A DNA stretch of 34,199 bases, taken from the NCBI RefSeq assembly GCF_000336675.1, contig NZ_AOMB01000043.1:1-34199 (forward strand). The letters run 5' to 3'. Below, in pieces: positions 12,993 to 32,143 of the stretch; position 1 is the first letter of the stretch, and every line of letters starts with the position of its first letter. The DNA is from Halococcus hamelinensis 100A6. GTDB lineage: Archaea > Halobacteriota > Halobacteria > Halobacteriales > Halococcaceae. The notes below the pieces were generated by a model. That model saw only the letters and a program-made list of their open reading frames with translations. It was not told where the DNA came from and did not search any database. Position numbers and translations under genes: made by a program.

Positions 12993-13625
12993 TTACGACT
13001 CGTCGGTCGGGTTCGCGAGCGCGTCCTCGATCGACTCCTCGCCTTCGAGGAGTTCGAAGGTCGTTCCGTGGGTCGATTCGGTGTCGAGCGCGGCCACAAG
13101 CACGTGGGCGACGTCGGCCCGGGTGATCTCGCCGCGGTCGAGCTTTCGGGCGGTTTTCACTCGGCCGGTCGCGGGGTCGTCGGTGAGCGCCCCCGGGCGG
13201 ACGATGGTGTACGTGAGGTCGCTGGATTGGAGATATTCGTCGGCGGCTTGTTTCGCGACGAGGTAGTCGTAGAGCCCGTCGGGACTGTTCTCGGGTTCGT
13301 CGGCGTTCATCGCGCTCAACATTACGAATCGGTCGACGCCCTCCGCTTCGGCGGCGTCGACGAGTTTGTTCGCCCCGTCGCGGTCGACGCCTTCGACGTC
13401 CGCGCCGCTCGACCCCGCCGCGAAGACGATCGCGTCGTGGCCCGGCACCGCGTGGCTCACGTCCTCGGTGAGGTCCGCGACGGCCGTCTCGACACCGAAG
13501 TCGGCCATCTCGTCGACCTGTGATTCCGTGCGGACCATCGCCGTCGCGTCGTGGTCGCTCTCGGCGAGGATCTCGGTGATGTGCTGGCCGACGCCGCCGT
13601 GTGCGCCCGCGATGAGTACGTTCAT
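12993..13625 (-). CDS. NAD(P)-binding SDR-like protein (YwnB/atypical SDR)
   Basis: 210 residues, one Rossmann fold of the atypical SDR5-like class. The dinucleotide loop is GAHGGVG (7-13). MVRTESQV follows the second strand, IVFAAGSS the fourth, VMLSAMNAD carries the position of the catalytic Ser, and YDYLVAKQAADEYL has the Tyr-x3-Lys pair (YLVAK). TIVRPGALTDDP completes the family pattern. It probably reduces or senses an NAD(P)H-linked substrate; family members include flavin reductases and redox sensors. Repeat element A begins upstream of its start. GTTTAGAA at 13652-13659 is a possible TATA box. Confidence 0.9.
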   Translation of the reverse strand: MNVLIAGAHGGVGQHITEILAESDHDATAMVRTESQVDEMADFGVETAVADLTEDVSHAVPGHDAIVFAAGSSGADVEGVDRDGANKLVDAAEAEGVDRFVMLSAMNADEPENSPDGLYDYLVAKQAADEYLQSSDLTYTIVRPGALTDDPATGRVKTARKLDRGEITRADVAHVLVAALDTESTHGTTFELLEGEESIEDALANPTDES

Positions 13626-13679
13626 GCCGGGGAGAAGTAGGGGTCGGAGACTTCTAAACCATCTGCTCGATAGACGGTG

Positions 13680-14046
13680 CGGCGGTCGCGGTGCGGGTGC
13701 GACCGTGGCGGTCGCGGTTTGGGGTGTGGTTTGCGGTTCCTGGTGTCTCGGCGAACGAATGTGAGCCGAGGCTCAGGAGCGCTGTGCTCTCCTGGTGGAT
13801 GAAGGGCGAGGCGCGCGAACGAGCGCCGAAGGCGCGAGTGAGTAGCGACTGAAAGGAGCGCGCGGCGAGGGCTTCGGCGGTACGGTGCAGTGCCGTGCGG
13901 TTGCGGAGGTGTCAGTGATTGTACCGCGAACGAACGAAGTGAGTGAGCGGGCGCAAGCGCGACCAACGGGAGCGCGCAGCGCTTTTGATCCACATTTTGC
14001 CAGGGAGTGAGGCGCGACGCGCCGAACGACCGCAGCAAAAGGTGGG
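13680..14046 (-). repeat. Intergenic repeat element A (read on the minus strand)
   Basis: This fills the 424-base gap 13626-14049 and contains no convincing gene. Read on the minus strand it starts one box after the HAH_0734 stop codon with CCCACCTTTTGCTG (14033-14046). It then has a GGCGC-GAC-GCGCC hairpin (14011-14023), a 24-base box identical to element B (13981-14004), the box at 13914-13933 shared with element D, and a 25-base box identical to element B (13784-13808) that enters a hairpin. It ends with an 18-base box (13733-13750) nearly identical to one in B. No transposase or target duplication was found. Confidence 0.75.
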
Positions 14047-14049
14047 GGT

Positions 14050-14316
14050 CTATGTCGTGAGCTCGCCCTTCCGTTCGAGGACGGTGACGGCCTCGGCGTC
14101 GACCGACTCGACGTCGAGATGCATCGGGATGTACTCGCGGCGCTCGAAGGTCTCGATCTCGTCGCGCTCGCCGACCGTACACCAGAGCTGCGGGCGGTCG
14201 GGACCGTGCCACTCGCCGAACTTGCTGATGCCGAAACAGACCACTTCGTCGCCGTCGTACTCGATCCGGCCGCCCTTGCGAACCCCCGGATCGCCGTGGA
14301 TGATGAGCCGCTTCAT
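14050..14316 (-). CDS. HAH_0734 family protein
   Basis: 88 residues: MKRLIIHGDPGVRKGGRIEY at the start, then EWHGPDRPQLWCTVG and IPMHLDVESVDAEAVTVL. This matches the conserved haloarchaeal HAH_0734 family as I recall it. Small soluble acidic beta-rich protein with no signal or membrane segment. Function unknown. The minus strand has CTTAGG at 14340-14347, about 27 bases upstream of the ATG, as TATA-like box. Repeat element A starts directly after its stop codon. Confidence 0.82.
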   Translation of the reverse strand: MKRLIIHGDPGVRKGGRIEYDGDEVVCFGISKFGEWHGPDRPQLWCTVGERDEIETFERREYIPMHLDVESVDAEAVTVLERKGELTT

Positions 14317-14383
14317 GCTGGAGGGTCGACCGACGCGGACCTAAGCGCTTCGGACCTCGTGTCGGTTCGTCGAGAACTCGTGG

Positions 14384-14491
14384 TCAGGCCATCCCCTGTT
14401 CGGGATGCTCTTCCTCCATGTGGTCGTTGAGCGATTCCTCGGTGCCGAAGGACTTGTTGCAGATACGGCATTCGAAGTCGGGTGCGCTCAT
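14384..14491 (-). CDS. 35-residue C2H2 zinc-finger microprotein
   Basis: A very short frame from the ATG at 14491 to TGA at 14384-14386. The product is one classical finger with spacing C-x2-C-x12-H-x4-[21 protein letters not shown], then EEEH. The Phe and Leu of the finger core are in place, and eight residues precede and six follow it. A TATA-like GTTTAGTC (14517-14524) is centred 29 bases upstream, so it is probably transcribed leaderlessly. Small zinc fingers are common in haloarchaea, and some affect stress or biofilm traits. Whether this one binds DNA, RNA or protein is unknown. Confidence 0.82.
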
Positions 14492-14516
14492 TGGCGGCGG
14501 AGGTCGGGGACGAACC

Positions 14517-14524
14517 GACTAAAC
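14517..14524 (-). promoter_or_regulatory. TATA-like box for the C2H2 microprotein
   Basis: The minus strand reads GTTTAGTC, about 29 bases upstream of the ATG at 14491. It supports this very short frame as an expressed gene. Confidence 0.45.
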
Positions 14525-14530
14525 GGTTTC

Positions 14531-14550
14531 ACCGGCAAACGAAAGCCGGT
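14531..14550. repeat. Inverted repeat between the two divergent promoters
   Basis: ACCGGC (14531-14536) and GCCGGT (14545-14550) with an eight-base A-rich spacer (AAACGAAA), lying between the promoters of the zinc-finger gene and rpl44e. It could be an operator or a small hairpin; only six base pairs, so chance is possible. Confidence 0.3.
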
Positions 14551-14619
14551 CAGTGGTCGGTGGTCGTGGTCCCGAACGTCGCGCCGTGAGGAGAGGGCTC
14601 GTCACGGCAGACCAAACGG

Positions 14620-14627
14620 GTTTTACC
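14620..14627 (+). promoter_or_regulatory. TATA-like box of the translation-factor operon
   Basis: GTTTTACC within GGGTTTTACCCG, 30-37 bases before the ATG of rpl44e at 14657. This predicts a leader of at most about ten bases. It is the only clear promoter before the five co-directional genes up to 16886. Confidence 0.55.
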
Positions 14628-14656
14628 CGCGCGTCCGTTATCGGGCCTCAGCAACC

Positions 14657-14938
14657 ATGGAGATGCCTCGTCGGTTCAACACGTACTGCCCTCACTGCAA
14701 CGAACACCACCAACACGAGATCGAGAAGGTCCGCCACGGTCGCGAGACCGGCATGAAGTGGATCGACCGACAGACCGAACGCGGGACGTCGGTCATCGGC
14801 AACGCCGGCAAGTTCTCGAAGGTGCCGGGTGGCGACAAGCCGACCAAGAAGACCAACCTCAAGTACCGGTGTGGCGACTGCGGCAAGGCCCACCTCCGTC
14901 CCGGATGGCGCGCCGGCCGACTCACCCTTCAGGAGTAA
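14657..14938 (+). CDS. rpl44e: 50S ribosomal protein L44e
   Basis: 93 residues, start at the ATG before [19 protein letters not shown]. The zinc site uses Cys11/Cys14 (CPHC) and Cys72/Cys75 (RCGDCGK). The basic central segment [20 protein letters not shown] contacts rRNA; L44e lies near the E site of the archaeal and eukaryotic large subunit. It is more basic than the neighbours, as expected for a ribosomal protein. Two bases separate its stop from rps27e, so it leads a translation operon. Confidence 0.97.
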
Positions 14939-14940
14939 GC

Positions 14941-15144
14941 ATGGCAGGCAACTTCTACACCGTGGAATGTCCGGACTGTGAGAACGAGCAGGTCGTCTTC
15001 GGGAAGGCCGCGACGCAGGTCGCGTGTGCGGTCTGTGGTTCGACGCTCGCGCACGCGACCGGTGGCAAAGCGGTCTTCGAGGGCGAGGTGCTCGACACCG
15101 TCGAGCGCCGTGAGGCACCCGACGATCTCACGGGATCGAGCTGA
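14941..15144 (+). CDS. rps27e: 30S ribosomal protein S27e
   Basis: 67 residues. Zinc ribbon with Cys10/Cys13 ([10 protein letters not shown]) and Cys29/Cys32 (ACAVCGS), and the family strand [17 protein letters not shown]. It binds the 16S rRNA in the small subunit. The stop shares one base with the start of the aIF2-alpha gene (TGATG), which implies coupled translation. Confidence 0.97.
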
Positions 15145-15944
15145 TGAACTACAGTGGCTGGCCGGACCCGAGCGAACTCGTGATCGGGAAGGTCGACGAG
15201 ATCGCCGACTTCGGCGTCTTCGTCGACCTCTCGGAGTACGAGGACAAACGGGGCCTCGTCCACATCTCCGAGGTCGCCTCGGGCTGGATCAAGAACGTCC
15301 GCGACCACGTCGGCGTCGGCCAGACGGTGGTGGCCAAAGTCCTCTCGGTCGACGAGGGCTCCCAGCAGATCGACCTCTCGCTCAAGGACGTCAACGACCA
15401 CCAGCGCTCCGAGAAGGTCCAGGAGTGGAAGGCCGCCAAGCGCGCCGACAACTGGATGACGATCGCCTTCGGTGAGGACATCGACGACGCACAGTACACC
15501 GCAGTCGCGAACGAGTTCCTCACCGAGTTCGGCACGCTCTATGCGGGCTTCGAGGAGGCCGCCATCCGCGGCGCGGACGCGCTCAACGGGACCGACCTCT
15601 CGGCGGAGGAGATCGACGCCATCGTCGAGACCGCCCGCGAGAACGTCTCGGTACCCTACGTCGCGGTCTCGGGCTACGTCGACCTCCGGAGCCCCGAGGC
15701 CGCCGGCGTCGACGCCATCCGCGAGGCGCTCCACGCCGCGGAGGGCAACGGCGACCTCCCCGACGGGGTCGACCTCGACGTGACCTACGTCGGCTCGCCG
15801 GAGTACCGCATCCGCGTCGAGGCACCCGACTACAAGACCGCCGAGGCCGAACTCGAAGCCAGCGCCGACCGCGCGGCCGCCGCCGTCGGCGAACACGGCG
15901 GGAGCGCGGAGTTCCACCGCGAGCGCCGAAGCGACGACGAGTAA
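15144..15944 (+). CDS. eif2a: Translation initiation factor aIF2 subunit alpha
   Basis: 266 residues, start overlapping the rps27e stop. Residues 6-85 form the S1 OB-fold ([20 protein letters not shown], then GLVHISEV and HDHVGVGQ-like [26 protein letters not shown]). A helical middle domain (90-175) and a C-terminal alpha/beta domain that binds the gamma subunit (about 180-266) follow. The heterotrimer brings initiator Met-tRNA to the small subunit. Order L44e, S27e, aIF2-alpha, Nop10 is a conserved archaeal arrangement. Confidence 0.97.
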
Positions 15945-15950
15945 TTCTCG

Positions 15951-16133
15951 ATGAAATCCGCGATTCGCGTCTGTGCCGACTGGGAATCCACGCACGACAC
16001 CCCCGTGTATACCCTCACCGAGACGTGTCCCGAGTGTGGTGGATCGGCCGTCAACAGCGCGCCCGCGCCGTACAACCCCGAGGACCCGCATGGGGAGTAC
16101 CGACGCGCTCTTAAGCGCCGCGAGTCCGGGTAG
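15951..16133 (+). CDS. nop10: Nop10, H/ACA RNA-protein complex subunit
   Basis: 60 residues, six bases after the aIF2-alpha stop. Zinc-ribbon part with Cys8 and CPECGG (Cys26, Cys29), followed by the family tail NSAPAPYNPEDPHGEYRRAL, which packs on the pseudouridine synthase Cbf5. It is a subunit of the H/ACA guide-RNA machine for rRNA pseudouridylation. Length and position are usual for archaea. Confidence 0.95.
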   Translation: MKSAIRVCADWESTHDTPVYTLTETCPECGGSAVNSAPAPYNPEDPHGEYRRALKRRESG

Positions 16134-16136
16134 GGC

Positions 16137-16886
16137 ATGGACGAATTCGATATCGAGACGCTCGCGGAGCCGGAGCTGTCCGACCCCGTGCTCGTCGAGG
16201 GGCTCCCCGGCGTGGGCCACGTCGGCAAGCTCGTCGCCGAGCACCTCCTCGAAGAGCTCGACGGCGAACCGGTTCGTCGCGTCTACTCCGAGCACTTCCC
16301 GCCGCAGGTCGACATCGACGAGGGCCGCGCGAAGCTCGCCTCGGCCGAACTCCACGCCGTCGAGGCCGACGGCCGGGACCTGCTGGTGCTCACCGGCGAC
16401 CACCAGGCCCAGGACGCGGCCGGTCACTACCGACTCACCGACCGATTCCTCGACATCGCCGCGGAGTTCGACGTCGAGCGGGTGTTCGCGCTCGGCGGCG
16501 TCCCGACCGGCGAACTCATCGACGAGTACGACGTCATCGGCGCGGCGACGGGCGACGAGTCCATCGAGGAGCTCGAAGCCGCGGGCGTCGAGTTCCGCGA
16601 GGGCGAACCCGCCGGCGGCATCGTCGGCGTCAGTGGCCTGCTCCTCGGCCTCGCCGAACGCCGCGACCTCCCCGCGGCCTGCCTGATGGGCGAAACCAGC
16701 GGCTACCTCGTCGACCCCAAGAGCGCCCGCGCGGTGCTCGAGATCCTCGAGGACATCGTCGGCTTCGAGGTCGACTTCGACTCCCTCGAAGAGCGCGCCG
16801 ACGAGATGGAGGAAGTGGTGCAGAAGATCCAGCAGATGGAGGGCGGCCAGGCCGCCACCGACGACGACCTCCGGTATATCGGGTAG
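16137..16886 (+). CDS. PAC2-family protein (proteasome assembly chaperone-like)
   Basis: 249 residues, starting three bases after nop10. The PAC2 fold is shown by DPVLVEGLPGVGHVGKLVAE (17-36), the core strand DLLVLTGDHQAQD, VFALGGVPTG, and the glycine motif GGIVGVSGLLLGLAE. A C-terminal coiled segment (about 215-245: DSLEERADEMEEVVQKIQQM) is typical of the archaeal members. Relatives include eukaryotic PAC2 chaperones of the 20S proteasome; the archaeal role is less certain. Repeat element B starts immediately after the stop codon. Confidence 0.9.
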   Translation: MDEFDIETLAEPELSDPVLVEGLPGVGHVGKLVAEHLLEELDGEPVRRVYSEHFPPQVDIDEGRAKLASAELHAVEADGRDLLVLTGDHQAQDAAGHYRLTDRFLDIAAEFDVERVFALGGVPTGELIDEYDVIGAATGDESIEELEAAGVEFREGEPAGGIVGVSGLLLGLAERRDLPAACLMGETSGYLVDPKSARAVLEILEDIVGFEVDFDSLEERADEMEEVVQKIQQMEGGQAATDDDLRYIG

Positions 16887-16907
16887 ATCCCACCTTTTGC
16901 TGTCGTT

Positions 16908-17014
16908 CGGAAGGCGCAGAGCGCCTTCCGTGAGCATGGCAAGACCGGAGGTCTTGCTGCAACCGGAAACGGCGAAGCCGTTTCCGAGGATGACGAGACG
17001 GCTTCGCCGTCTCG
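16908..17014. repeat. Array of four perfect triloop hairpins in element B
   Basis: Stem CGGAAGGCGC with loop AGA (16908-16930, 10 pairs); GCAAGACC with loop GGA (16939-16957, 8 pairs); CGGAAACGGC with loop GAA (16964-16986, 10 pairs); CGAGACGGC with loop TTC (16994-17014, 9 pairs). All are perfect and separated by 6-8 bases. The stems differ in sequence, so these are not copies of one unit, yet the geometry is constant. Confidence 0.85.
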
Positions 17015-17025
17015 AACCACGGTCG

Positions 17026-17290
17026 CTCGCTTCGCTCACGGGTCACTCCGTTCGCCGTTCGCATCCGAGGTTCTCCCTTCGGTCGAACCTCGCGCCGCTC
17101 GCCCCTGGCAAAATGTGGATCAAAAGCCTGCGTCACCTCCTTCGGAGGTTCCTTGGCCCGCTCGCTCCTTTCAGTCGCTCGCGGTAGGGTCACTAGCCCC
17201 TACCGAGCCACTACCGCACCCGCACAGCACCGCCACCGCCGAAGCCCTCGCTTCGCTCACGGCTCACTCCGTTCGCCGTTCGTATCGAGG
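17026..17290 (+). repeat. Internal direct repeat of element B (two copies, about 45 bases)
   Basis: Copy 1 is 17026-17070, copy 2 is 17247-17290. Both begin CTCGCTTCGCTCACGG and end in ATC(C)GAGG; they differ at two positions and one single-base gap. The spacing start to start is 221 bases. Confidence 0.8.
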
Positions 17291-17334
17291 CGCTCGCGTT
17301 GCTCGCGCCTCGCTTCGCTCGCCCTTCATCCACC

Positions 17335-17353
17335 AGGAGAGCACGGCTCTCCT
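17335..17353. repeat. Box-4 hairpin of element B
   Basis: AGGAGAGC, loop ACG, GCTCTCCT: eight perfect pairs, preceded by TCATCCACC and followed by GAGCCT. Element C has a different stem at the equivalent place, with the same flanks. Confidence 0.8.
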
Positions 17354-17482
17354 GAGCCTCGACTCGCGTTCACTCGTCGAGACATCAGGTACCGCTGCCG
17401 TCATCGCACCGCAACCGCACGGCGGCCGCACCGCAGCCGCCGCGACACAATCCTGAATACGACGGGTGGGATCGGTCGTGTC

Positions 17483-18013
17483 ATGCCCGGTCCGGTCTTC
17501 CTCGACGGCGAGCCGGTCAGGCTCAGAACCATCGAAGAGGAGGACATCGAGTTCCTCCAGCGCCACATCAACGACCCCGCAGTCCGAACACCTATTGGCT
17601 CGTCCGCTCCGGTGAACGAAGCCGAGGAACGCGACTGGTTCGAATCGCTGAACGAGGGCGACGACGTCTCGCTCCTGATCTGTGTCGATGACGAGGCCGT
17701 GGGAACCATCAGCCTCATGCGGATCGACGAAGGCTGGGGTCGTGGCACCCTCGGCTACTGGATAGCCCCCGACGAGTGGGGCGAGGGCTACGCGACGGCC
17801 GCCACACGACTCCTCGTGGGCCACGCGTTCGACCAACTCCGGCTTCACAAGGTCCGTGCCGAGGCGTTCGACTACAACGCTGGCTCCCGGCGGGTGCTCG
17901 AAAAGGTCGGGTTCACCGAGGAAGGCGTCGGTCGCGAGGAGTGCTTCGTCGACGGCGAGTACGTCGATGTCCACCGCTACGGCCTGCTCGAAGACGAGTG
18001 GCGCGACTTATAA
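17483..18013 (+). CDS. GNAT N-acetyltransferase (RimJ/RimL type)
   Basis: 176 residues from the ATG at 17483; the longer upstream frame runs through repeat element B and is not coding. GNAT core: strand VRLRTIEEEDIEFLQRHIND, central strand GTISLMRIDEGWGRGTLGYW, acetyl-CoA pyrophosphate loop WGEGYATAATRLLV, then HKVRAEAFDYNAGSRRVLEK and VGFTEEGVGREECFVDG. This is the pattern of RimL/RimJ-like enzymes that acetylate an amino group of a ribosomal protein, peptide or small molecule. The target cannot be named. Its last six bases overlap the convergent acyl-CoA dehydrogenase stop. Confidence 0.92.
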   Translation: MPGPVFLDGEPVRLRTIEEEDIEFLQRHINDPAVRTPIGSSAPVNEAEERDWFESLNEGDDVSLLICVDDEAVGTISLMRIDEGWGRGTLGYWIAPDEWGEGYATAATRLLVGHAFDQLRLHKVRAEAFDYNAGSRRVLEKVGFTEEGVGREECFVDGEYVDVHRYGLLEDEWRDL

Positions 18014-25735: not shown

Positions 25736-26065
25736 CCCACTTTTTTCGACGGGGGAATCGCGCTCGCTTCGCTCGCGCTCAACCCCCGCCCAAAAACCTG
25801 GACTGAAAAGGGCTGCTCGCTCCCTCCGGTCGCTCGCAGTACAATCGCTAACCAGCTACCGCCTCCACCCCCAACCACTCCGCAGCCGCCACACGCCTCC
25901 CCAGCCGATTCGCTCCGTTCGTTCCACTCACTCCGCTCATCCACCGGCAGAGCTTCGCTCTGCCGAGCCTGCACTCGCTACGCTCGCGCAGACCTCGCAC
26001 AGTGTCCGCGGTCGGTGTTCGTGTTCACTCACACACGACCGCGAGCGCGCGCCACAGCATCCGCC
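25736..26065 (+). repeat. Intergenic repeat element C
   Basis: This fills most of the gap 25697-26092 with no credible gene. Boxes in order: CCACTTTTTTC (25737-25747, identical to D), CAAAAACCTGGACT (25791-25804, identical to D and analogous to the 24-base A/B box), GTACAATCGCT (25839-25849), a 21-base box (25888-25908, identical to D), TCATCCAC (25937-25944) with a nine-pair hairpin (25945-25965), then 22- and 21-base boxes at 25993-26014 and 26034-26054, both identical to D. It is inverted relative to element D. No transposase or flanking duplication seen. Confidence 0.75.
25945..25965. repeat. Box-4 hairpin of element C
   Basis: CGGCAGAGC, loop TTC, GCTCTGCCG: nine perfect pairs between TCATCCAC and GAGCCT. 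It replaces the AGGAGAGC-ACG-GCTCTCCT stem of element B at the same position. Confidence 0.85.
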
Positions 26066-31799: not shown

Positions 31800-32143
31800 A
31801 CGAGACGAACCTGTTCATCCGCCGCGGCGGGAGCGGTCGGAGGTGGTGCGGTCGCGGTTGCGGTCGGAGCGGTTGGCGCGCGCTCGCGGTCGTGCGCGAA
31901 CGGACGTGAGCGCGCGACCGCGGACACTGTGCGAGGGATGAGCACCGCAGGGAGTGAGCAAAGCGAACGACCGAGGAGCGCAGTCGGCTGGGGAGGCGTG
32001 TGGCCGTTGCGGGACGGTGGCGGGGCGGAAGGGTGAGTGATTGTACCGCGAACGAGCGCGAAGCGCGAGTGAGCGGGAGTTTTTAGTCCAGGTTTTTGCG
32101 AGGAGTGGTTCGCCGAAGGCGAACCCGACGAGGAAAAAAGTGG
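31800..32143 (-). repeat. Intergenic repeat element D (read on the minus strand)
   Basis: This fills the gap 31758-32182 between two divergent promoters and has no credible gene. On the minus strand: CCACTTTTTTC (32133-32143), an eight-pair hairpin (32107-32125), the CAAAAACCTGGACT box (complement of 32085-32098), a 20-base box at 32036-32055 identical to element A, then 21-, 22- and 21-base boxes identical to element C (31984-32004, 31915-31936, 31874-31894). The box-4 hairpin of A, B and C is missing: CTCATCC joins directly to CTCGCAC. Confidence 0.75.
32107..32125. repeat. Triloop hairpin in element D
   Basis: GGTTCGCC, loop GAA, GGCGAACC: eight perfect pairs between the first and second conserved boxes, the same interval that holds the hairpins of elements A and B. 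Confidence 0.85.

Follow-up and report, generated by a model that had tools for sequence, protein, structure and literature searches.

Two kinds of bacterial repeat appear to come closest to the element described here, namely BIME/REP mosaics, in which complementary changes keep the REPs paired (PMC2817692), and the BOX repeat of pneumococcus, a composite repeat whose hairpin modules can be present or absent without disturbing the rest (PMC3049150). In the haloarchaea, T-stretch terminators have been established in Haloferax (PMC7237163). Template switching has been reported to produce several compensatory changes, the creation of a stem or the inversion of a loop in one step, and loop inversion is considered its mark (PMC8794818). 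As paired changes arise in a single step by this route, no selection for structure is needed to obtain them (PMC8794818).

In the window, the whole 34,199-nucleotide stretch that was analysed (positions 1-34199 of contig C43 in genome G000), the initial annotation had singled out a hairpin, here called hairpin IV, for matching changes on its two arms among four elements, A to D. Our analysis showed that this hairpin is half of an optional cassette of about 51 bp, carried by a Halococcus-wide family of mosaic, palindromic, intergenic repeats. The features of the window are as follows:

16890..17445, + strand: element B (type 1), beginning just past the PAC2 stop codon and ending ahead of the GNAT gene, placed by module matches, gene calls and Pfam; end approximate
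16890..16902, + strand: element B, 5' module CCACCTTTTGCTG, a T-tract and left arm of the terminal stem, 3 nt past the stop codon
17106..17127, + strand: element B, module TGGCAAAATGTGGATCAAAAGC, right arm of the terminal stem, with T-tracts on the other strand; 51 copies in its own genome
17238..17249, + strand: element B, linker GCCGAAGCCCTC, preceding the hairpin III slot; in 128 of 135 copies
17250..17319, + strand: element B, hairpin III slot, long and multi-hairpin here
17320..17337, + strand: element B, type-1 core CGCCCTTCATCCRCCAGG, rare outside the genus
17332..17383, + strand: element B, optional cassette ACC-hairpin IV-GAGCCT-hairpin V-GAC, present or absent among orthologous loci
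17335..17353, + strand: element B, hairpin IV, AGGAGAGC ACG GCTCTCCT, the hairpin first annotated
17358..17381, + strand: element B, hairpin V, CTCGAC..GTCGAG
13690..14045, - strand: element A (type 1, cassette present), past the stop codon of the gene at 14050-14316; end approximate
13775..13793, - strand: element A, hairpin IV, with one A-G mismatch
25737..26040, + strand: element C (type 2, cassette present); end approximate
25943..25993, + strand: element C, cassette, with hairpin IV at 25945-25965
31850..32143, - strand: element D (type 2, cassette absent), junction near 31931-31940; end approximate

We believe, with a probability of roughly 60%, that a mosaic element of this kind would maintain its hairpins at the DNA level, use its 5' stem as a terminator and recombine with its other copies, a joint reading drawn from sequence comparison. 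A further-reaching version, which we put forward only tentatively, is that processes acting on DNA keep rewriting, flipping and exchanging the hairpins, giving RNA-like covariation without selection on RNA, and that the elements are preferred sites at which the chromosome is cut and re-joined, possibly through extruded hairpins.

The repeat was found in all ten Halococcus genomes, with 34-71 type-1 copies (reversed-pattern control, 0) and 8-45 type-2 copies in each. The type-1 core is CGCCCTTCATCCRCCAGG, and type 2 reads CCACACGCCTCCCCAGCCG...CTCATCC...TCGCACAGTGTCCGCGG, while the 5' modules are common to both. Read from the stop codon, the element opens with CCACCTTTTGCTG or CCACTTTTTT and a first hairpin, followed in turn by GGCAAAATGTGGATCAAAAGC or CAAAAACCTGGACTAAAAA, a CCGC..GCGG hairpin, GTACAACNRCTAAC, GCCGAAGCCCTC, hairpin III, the core, the optional cassette and a tail rich in CCGCACCGC. 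These modules keep a fixed order and orientation, with conserved linkers separating hairpins of free sequence whose stems also vary in length. The cassette (ACC-hairpin-GAGCCT-hairpin-GAC) is placed exactly after CATCC in both subfamilies. Among 135 copies in G000 and G001, gene calling placed only 1 inside a gene. The type-1 core has 0-8 copies in each of 233 other genomes from the same order, and among named genomes 11 of the 13 matches to the core-plus-cassette pattern lie in H. thailandensis or H. morrhuae. We found no description of this family in the open-licence literature searched, and no Rfam family reached its gathering score over positions 13600-17600 (elements A and B). The best Rfam match there was SECIS_3, below threshold at 17400-17486 on the minus strand (23.3 bits against a cutoff of 63, E 0.067), most likely by chance in GC-rich sequence.

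Some scattered occurrences were also seen. A few core copies lie in other families (G175, with 8 copies, G048, G170, G100 and G064, which is Halorussus litoreus; loci L193-L202), possibly through transfer, or through a mixed assembly in the incomplete G175. The stem-I arm CAAAAAYCTGGACYAAAAA turns up in other families of haloarchaea too, a few times in each genome (G048, G025, G012, G020, G035 and G046; L211-L218) and may be an older terminator-like unit. At L095 the stem-I arm TGGCAAAATGTGGATCAAAAGC is found twice, 68 bases apart with N between (G000:C14:105195 and 105263), perhaps a tandem duplication or an assembly scar. A small gene cluster with two elements facing each other around it is kept in three species (L123, L184 and L221).

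The position of the elements is tied to the gene upstream. This gene is co-oriented with the element in 105 of 132 copies (p about 5e-12), while the downstream gene shows no bias (27 + and 31 - in G000; 36 + and 37 - in G001). The element opens with the T-tract stem, about 10 nt or less from the stop codon at the end of its co-oriented gene, and a run of at least four T within 20 nt of the stop codon is present at 105 of 121 co-oriented elements compared with 11 of 193 other gene ends. The 5' stem would thus be a candidate transcription terminator on both strands. Given such a T-run so near the stop codon, hairpin IV, which lies roughly 130-450 nt beyond it, may rarely be transcribed from the upstream gene. 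A hint from part of the G003 copies that element orientation follows the replichore was dropped, as the full set is mixed (33 forward, 19 reverse).

The hairpin of element B (AGGAGAGC-ACG-GCTCTCCT, 17335-17353, flanked by CATCCACC and GAGCCT) lies within 17320-17361, where the initial annotation had placed it, and that of element C (CGGCAGAGC-TTC-GCTCTGCCG, 25945-25965; chance expectation 0) is likewise present. The two had been described as differing at several positions on both arms with all pairs kept; the pairing is indeed kept, but exactly two pairs differ between the 21-mers CAGGAGAGC/GCTCTCCTG (B) and CGGCAGAGC/GCTCTGCCG (C), A-T to G-C and G-C to C-G, both compensated, and because A and B are type 1 while C and D are type 2, this comparison is one between subfamilies. 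Element A does hold a third variant with one A-G mismatch, although on the minus strand at 13775-13793, 3 nt from the position first given, and element D does lack the segment, reading CTCATCC-C-TCGCACAG (minus strand, about 31850-32143).

A larger alignment had been proposed as the check on these changes, and it revealed covariation above shuffles. Among 34 distinct hairpin IV 21-mers with 3-nt loops, 97.1% of pairs are standard compared with 89.6% in shuffles, and changes on both sides occur at 7 of 9 pairs compared with 1.7. There are 17 double-change cells compared with 1.9, although these are not independent events, as related copies share changes, and most arise from four type-2 versus 30 type-1 hairpins. 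None of 500 shuffles was as high, and all slid versions were also lower. Type 1 alone gave a smaller signal, with 7 double cells among 48 distinct hairpins, which nevertheless exceeds the 1.1 of shuffles. The matching changes on the two arms of hairpin IV are therefore real. The earlier view that structure rather than sequence has been kept needs qualifying: pairing survives base changes, but most stem columns are more than 80% identical and four are invariant.

Hairpin V covaries more strongly (21 compared with 6-7 in shuffles) and can also take on an entirely different sequence (CTCGGC..GCCGAG or CTGCGGTCGC..GCGACCGCAG), and the terminal stem shows the paired variants CCA/TGG, CGA/TCG and GAAC/GTTC. 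Both the sequence and the length of hairpin III vary freely, and 61 of 77 short hairpins contain a TC/TC internal loop motif. Irrespective of stem sequence, hairpins in different slots (e.g., hairpin III of L086, L118 and L103) have this symmetric loop around an inner stem of 2 bp.

A conserved RNA structure is usually proved by covariation, and on the transcribed strand an RNA stem is expected to accept G.U more readily than A.C. The counts of G.T and A.C were 8 and 12 in stem IV, 7 and 8 in stem V (main form), and 0 and 3 in stem III (with 362 Watson-Crick pairs), although these G.T counts are small and GC-rich stems give few chances for G.T. Among the loops, 10 of the 17 kinds of 3-nt loop in stem IV have their reverse complement among the others compared with 3.25 expected (as high in 8 of 3000, taking loop kinds as independent draws), while reversed and complemented forms number 0, and in one form of hairpin V all six loop kinds recur as reverse complements. 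At the orthologous loci L088 and L248 the loop has flipped in place, from GGCGC-GAA-GCGCC to GGCGC-TTC-GCGCC (control 0), the only such flip seen. The lack of a wobble excess, the reverse-complement loops and flip, and the T-run ahead of the hairpins together favor hairpins that are made and kept at the DNA level rather than as RNA, with a role for the structure still possible. Hairpin-templated replication or repair (template switching) might copy one arm onto the other and sometimes invert the whole hairpin, and exchange between copies could also help to keep hairpins perfectly paired. Hypermutable hairpins alone would not explain the kept linkers, for which some constraint is needed, and their conservation suggests a bound protein or another constraint.

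The alternative that fares best is a structured 3'-UTR RNA, in which the hairpins are selected as RNA, for stability of the mRNA 3' end or for protein binding, and have evolved by classical compensation. The strict orientation relative to the upstream gene, the significant covariation, the paired variants of the terminal stem, and the combination of conserved linkers with covarying stems, which is typical of such RNAs, would all fit. Yet G.U is not in excess and is absent from stem III, loops are inverted, the T-tract precedes the hairpins, no Rfam match rises above threshold, and the cassette is freely lost at orthologous loci, so we regard this explanation as unlikely. Of the two forms in which the initial annotation thought the structure might be kept, RNA is thus weakened by the wobble, loop and T-tract results, while a DNA cruciform stays compatible with them.

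Turnover of the hairpins can be followed between G000 and G006, whose orthologous loci (94% protein identity) keep the linkers and often have different hairpins. The elements of different species are set apart by the exchange of whole hairpins, and the cassette has been cleanly gained or lost. For example, element A has the cassette, while the orthologous G006 locus (L238-6214) has CATCCACCAGGAACC there and no cassette; conversely, the type-2 element L244 of G006 has the cassette and its G000 counterpart L082 (minus strand) does not. In type 1 the cassette lies between CRCCAGG repeats, which type 2 lacks; the ends of the whole elements are placed approximately.

Clean presence and absence at orthologous loci, an exact point after CATCC in both subfamilies, two hairpins as in REPIN doublets and a family spread over dozens of sites are what one would expect if the cassette or the whole repeat were a hairpin MITE, moved by a Y1 transposase of the IS200/IS605 type that inserts precisely after CATCC without target duplication. 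We nevertheless consider such non-autonomous mobility improbable. No Y1_Tnp (PF01797) match was found in G001 and G004, despite their 71 and 52 core copies, or in G008, which is only 72% complete, and no element modules lie near the Y1 genes checked. Positions are also mostly conserved between species, and clean loss in type 1 could occur by ordinary slippage between the CRCCAGG direct repeats, although type 2 has no such repeat. A link to RAYT/REPIN systems was rejected because neither G001 nor G004 has Y1 genes.

Copies of the element sit at chromosome rearrangement junctions between species. Between G000 and G001 (75 copies), the immediate neighbor of a G000 element was orthologous to the same-side neighbor of a G001 element, in the same strand sense, in 28 cases upstream and 25 downstream, but both partners are retained at only 6 elements, while 8 elements have their two partners at different elements. 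Between G000 and G006, for which 40 core copies of G006 were covered, 25 elements keep both partners and 6 are swapped; these swaps include L107/L131, exactly reciprocal to L233/L232, and one 3-cycle. Element B is among them, as its PAC2 side corresponds to L238+6189 of G006 and its GNAT side to L222. Gene adjacency, scored on the genome stretches covered, was kept and lost 53 and 14 times across elements compared with 53 and 1 at other gene boundaries between G000 and G006 (p = 0.0015), and 12 and 38 compared with 29 and 10 between G000 and G001 (p = 4e-6); for G006 and G001 the rates are closer (8 and 25 compared with 16 and 18). The higher loss across elements is only suggestive, because the control boundaries include within-operon gene pairs, which are better kept for other reasons, so that the cause of the difference cannot be assigned cleanly. 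The partner swaps, in which every new junction holds an element, are firmer evidence. Homologous recombination between copies may well rearrange the chromosome in this way, although crossover points inside the elements at swapped junctions could not be mapped because hairpin turnover is too rapid. An attC- or dif-like site for site-specific recombination, with a recombinase acting on the folded hairpins, would suit folded, oriented, post-stop sites with a fixed core and reciprocal, orientation-preserving partner exchange, but we think it highly improbable, as ordinary homologous recombination between repeats predicts the same pattern, crossovers were not mapped to the core, no recombinase is linked and no integron core boxes were apparent by eye.

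The family offers hundreds of natural hairpins in which to ask whether template switching of DNA alone yields covariation, with loop flips as the marker. The elements are also a testable candidate cause of gene-order change in an archaeal genus, and ready markers of past recombination.

Overall, the Halococcus element appears closest in the way it works to the BIME/REP mosaics of bacteria and the modular BOX repeat of pneumococcus, as a variant of that general kind and a member of neither family; we do not file it in either because two high-copy genomes are without the Y1 transposase expected of REPINs and there is no single conserved palindrome. As in BIMEs, many copies of a palindrome are dispersed between genes, palindromic units and linkers form a mosaic, complementary changes preserve pairing as noted for REPs (PMC2817692), and a link to transcription termination seems probable. 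In contrast to BIMEs, the element is archaeal, some high-copy genomes are without a REP-associated Y1 transposase, the modules follow a fixed order from the stop codon with a T-tract stem, and what the hairpins have in common is a conserved TC/TC internal loop rather than a single palindrome; the palindromic unit of one family in alternating orientation by which REPs are recognized was not found in it. With BOX it shares optional hairpin modules in a composite repeat, but here the optional module is a two-hairpin cassette, the stem sequences vary freely, and no defined ends resembling boxA or boxC and no terminal inverted repeats were found. The T-run shortly past the stop codon recalls the T-stretch terminators of Haloferax volcanii (PMC7237163), except that in Halococcus it is the arm of a covarying stem heading a repeat of 200-500 nt. 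Finally, the multiple compensatory changes in one step, stem creation and loop inversion of template-switch hairpins (PMC8794818) have their likeness here, but those were described for rRNA and microRNA genes, whereas in Halococcus they would affect a dispersed intergenic DNA repeat, in which loop inversions are apparently common rather than rare.
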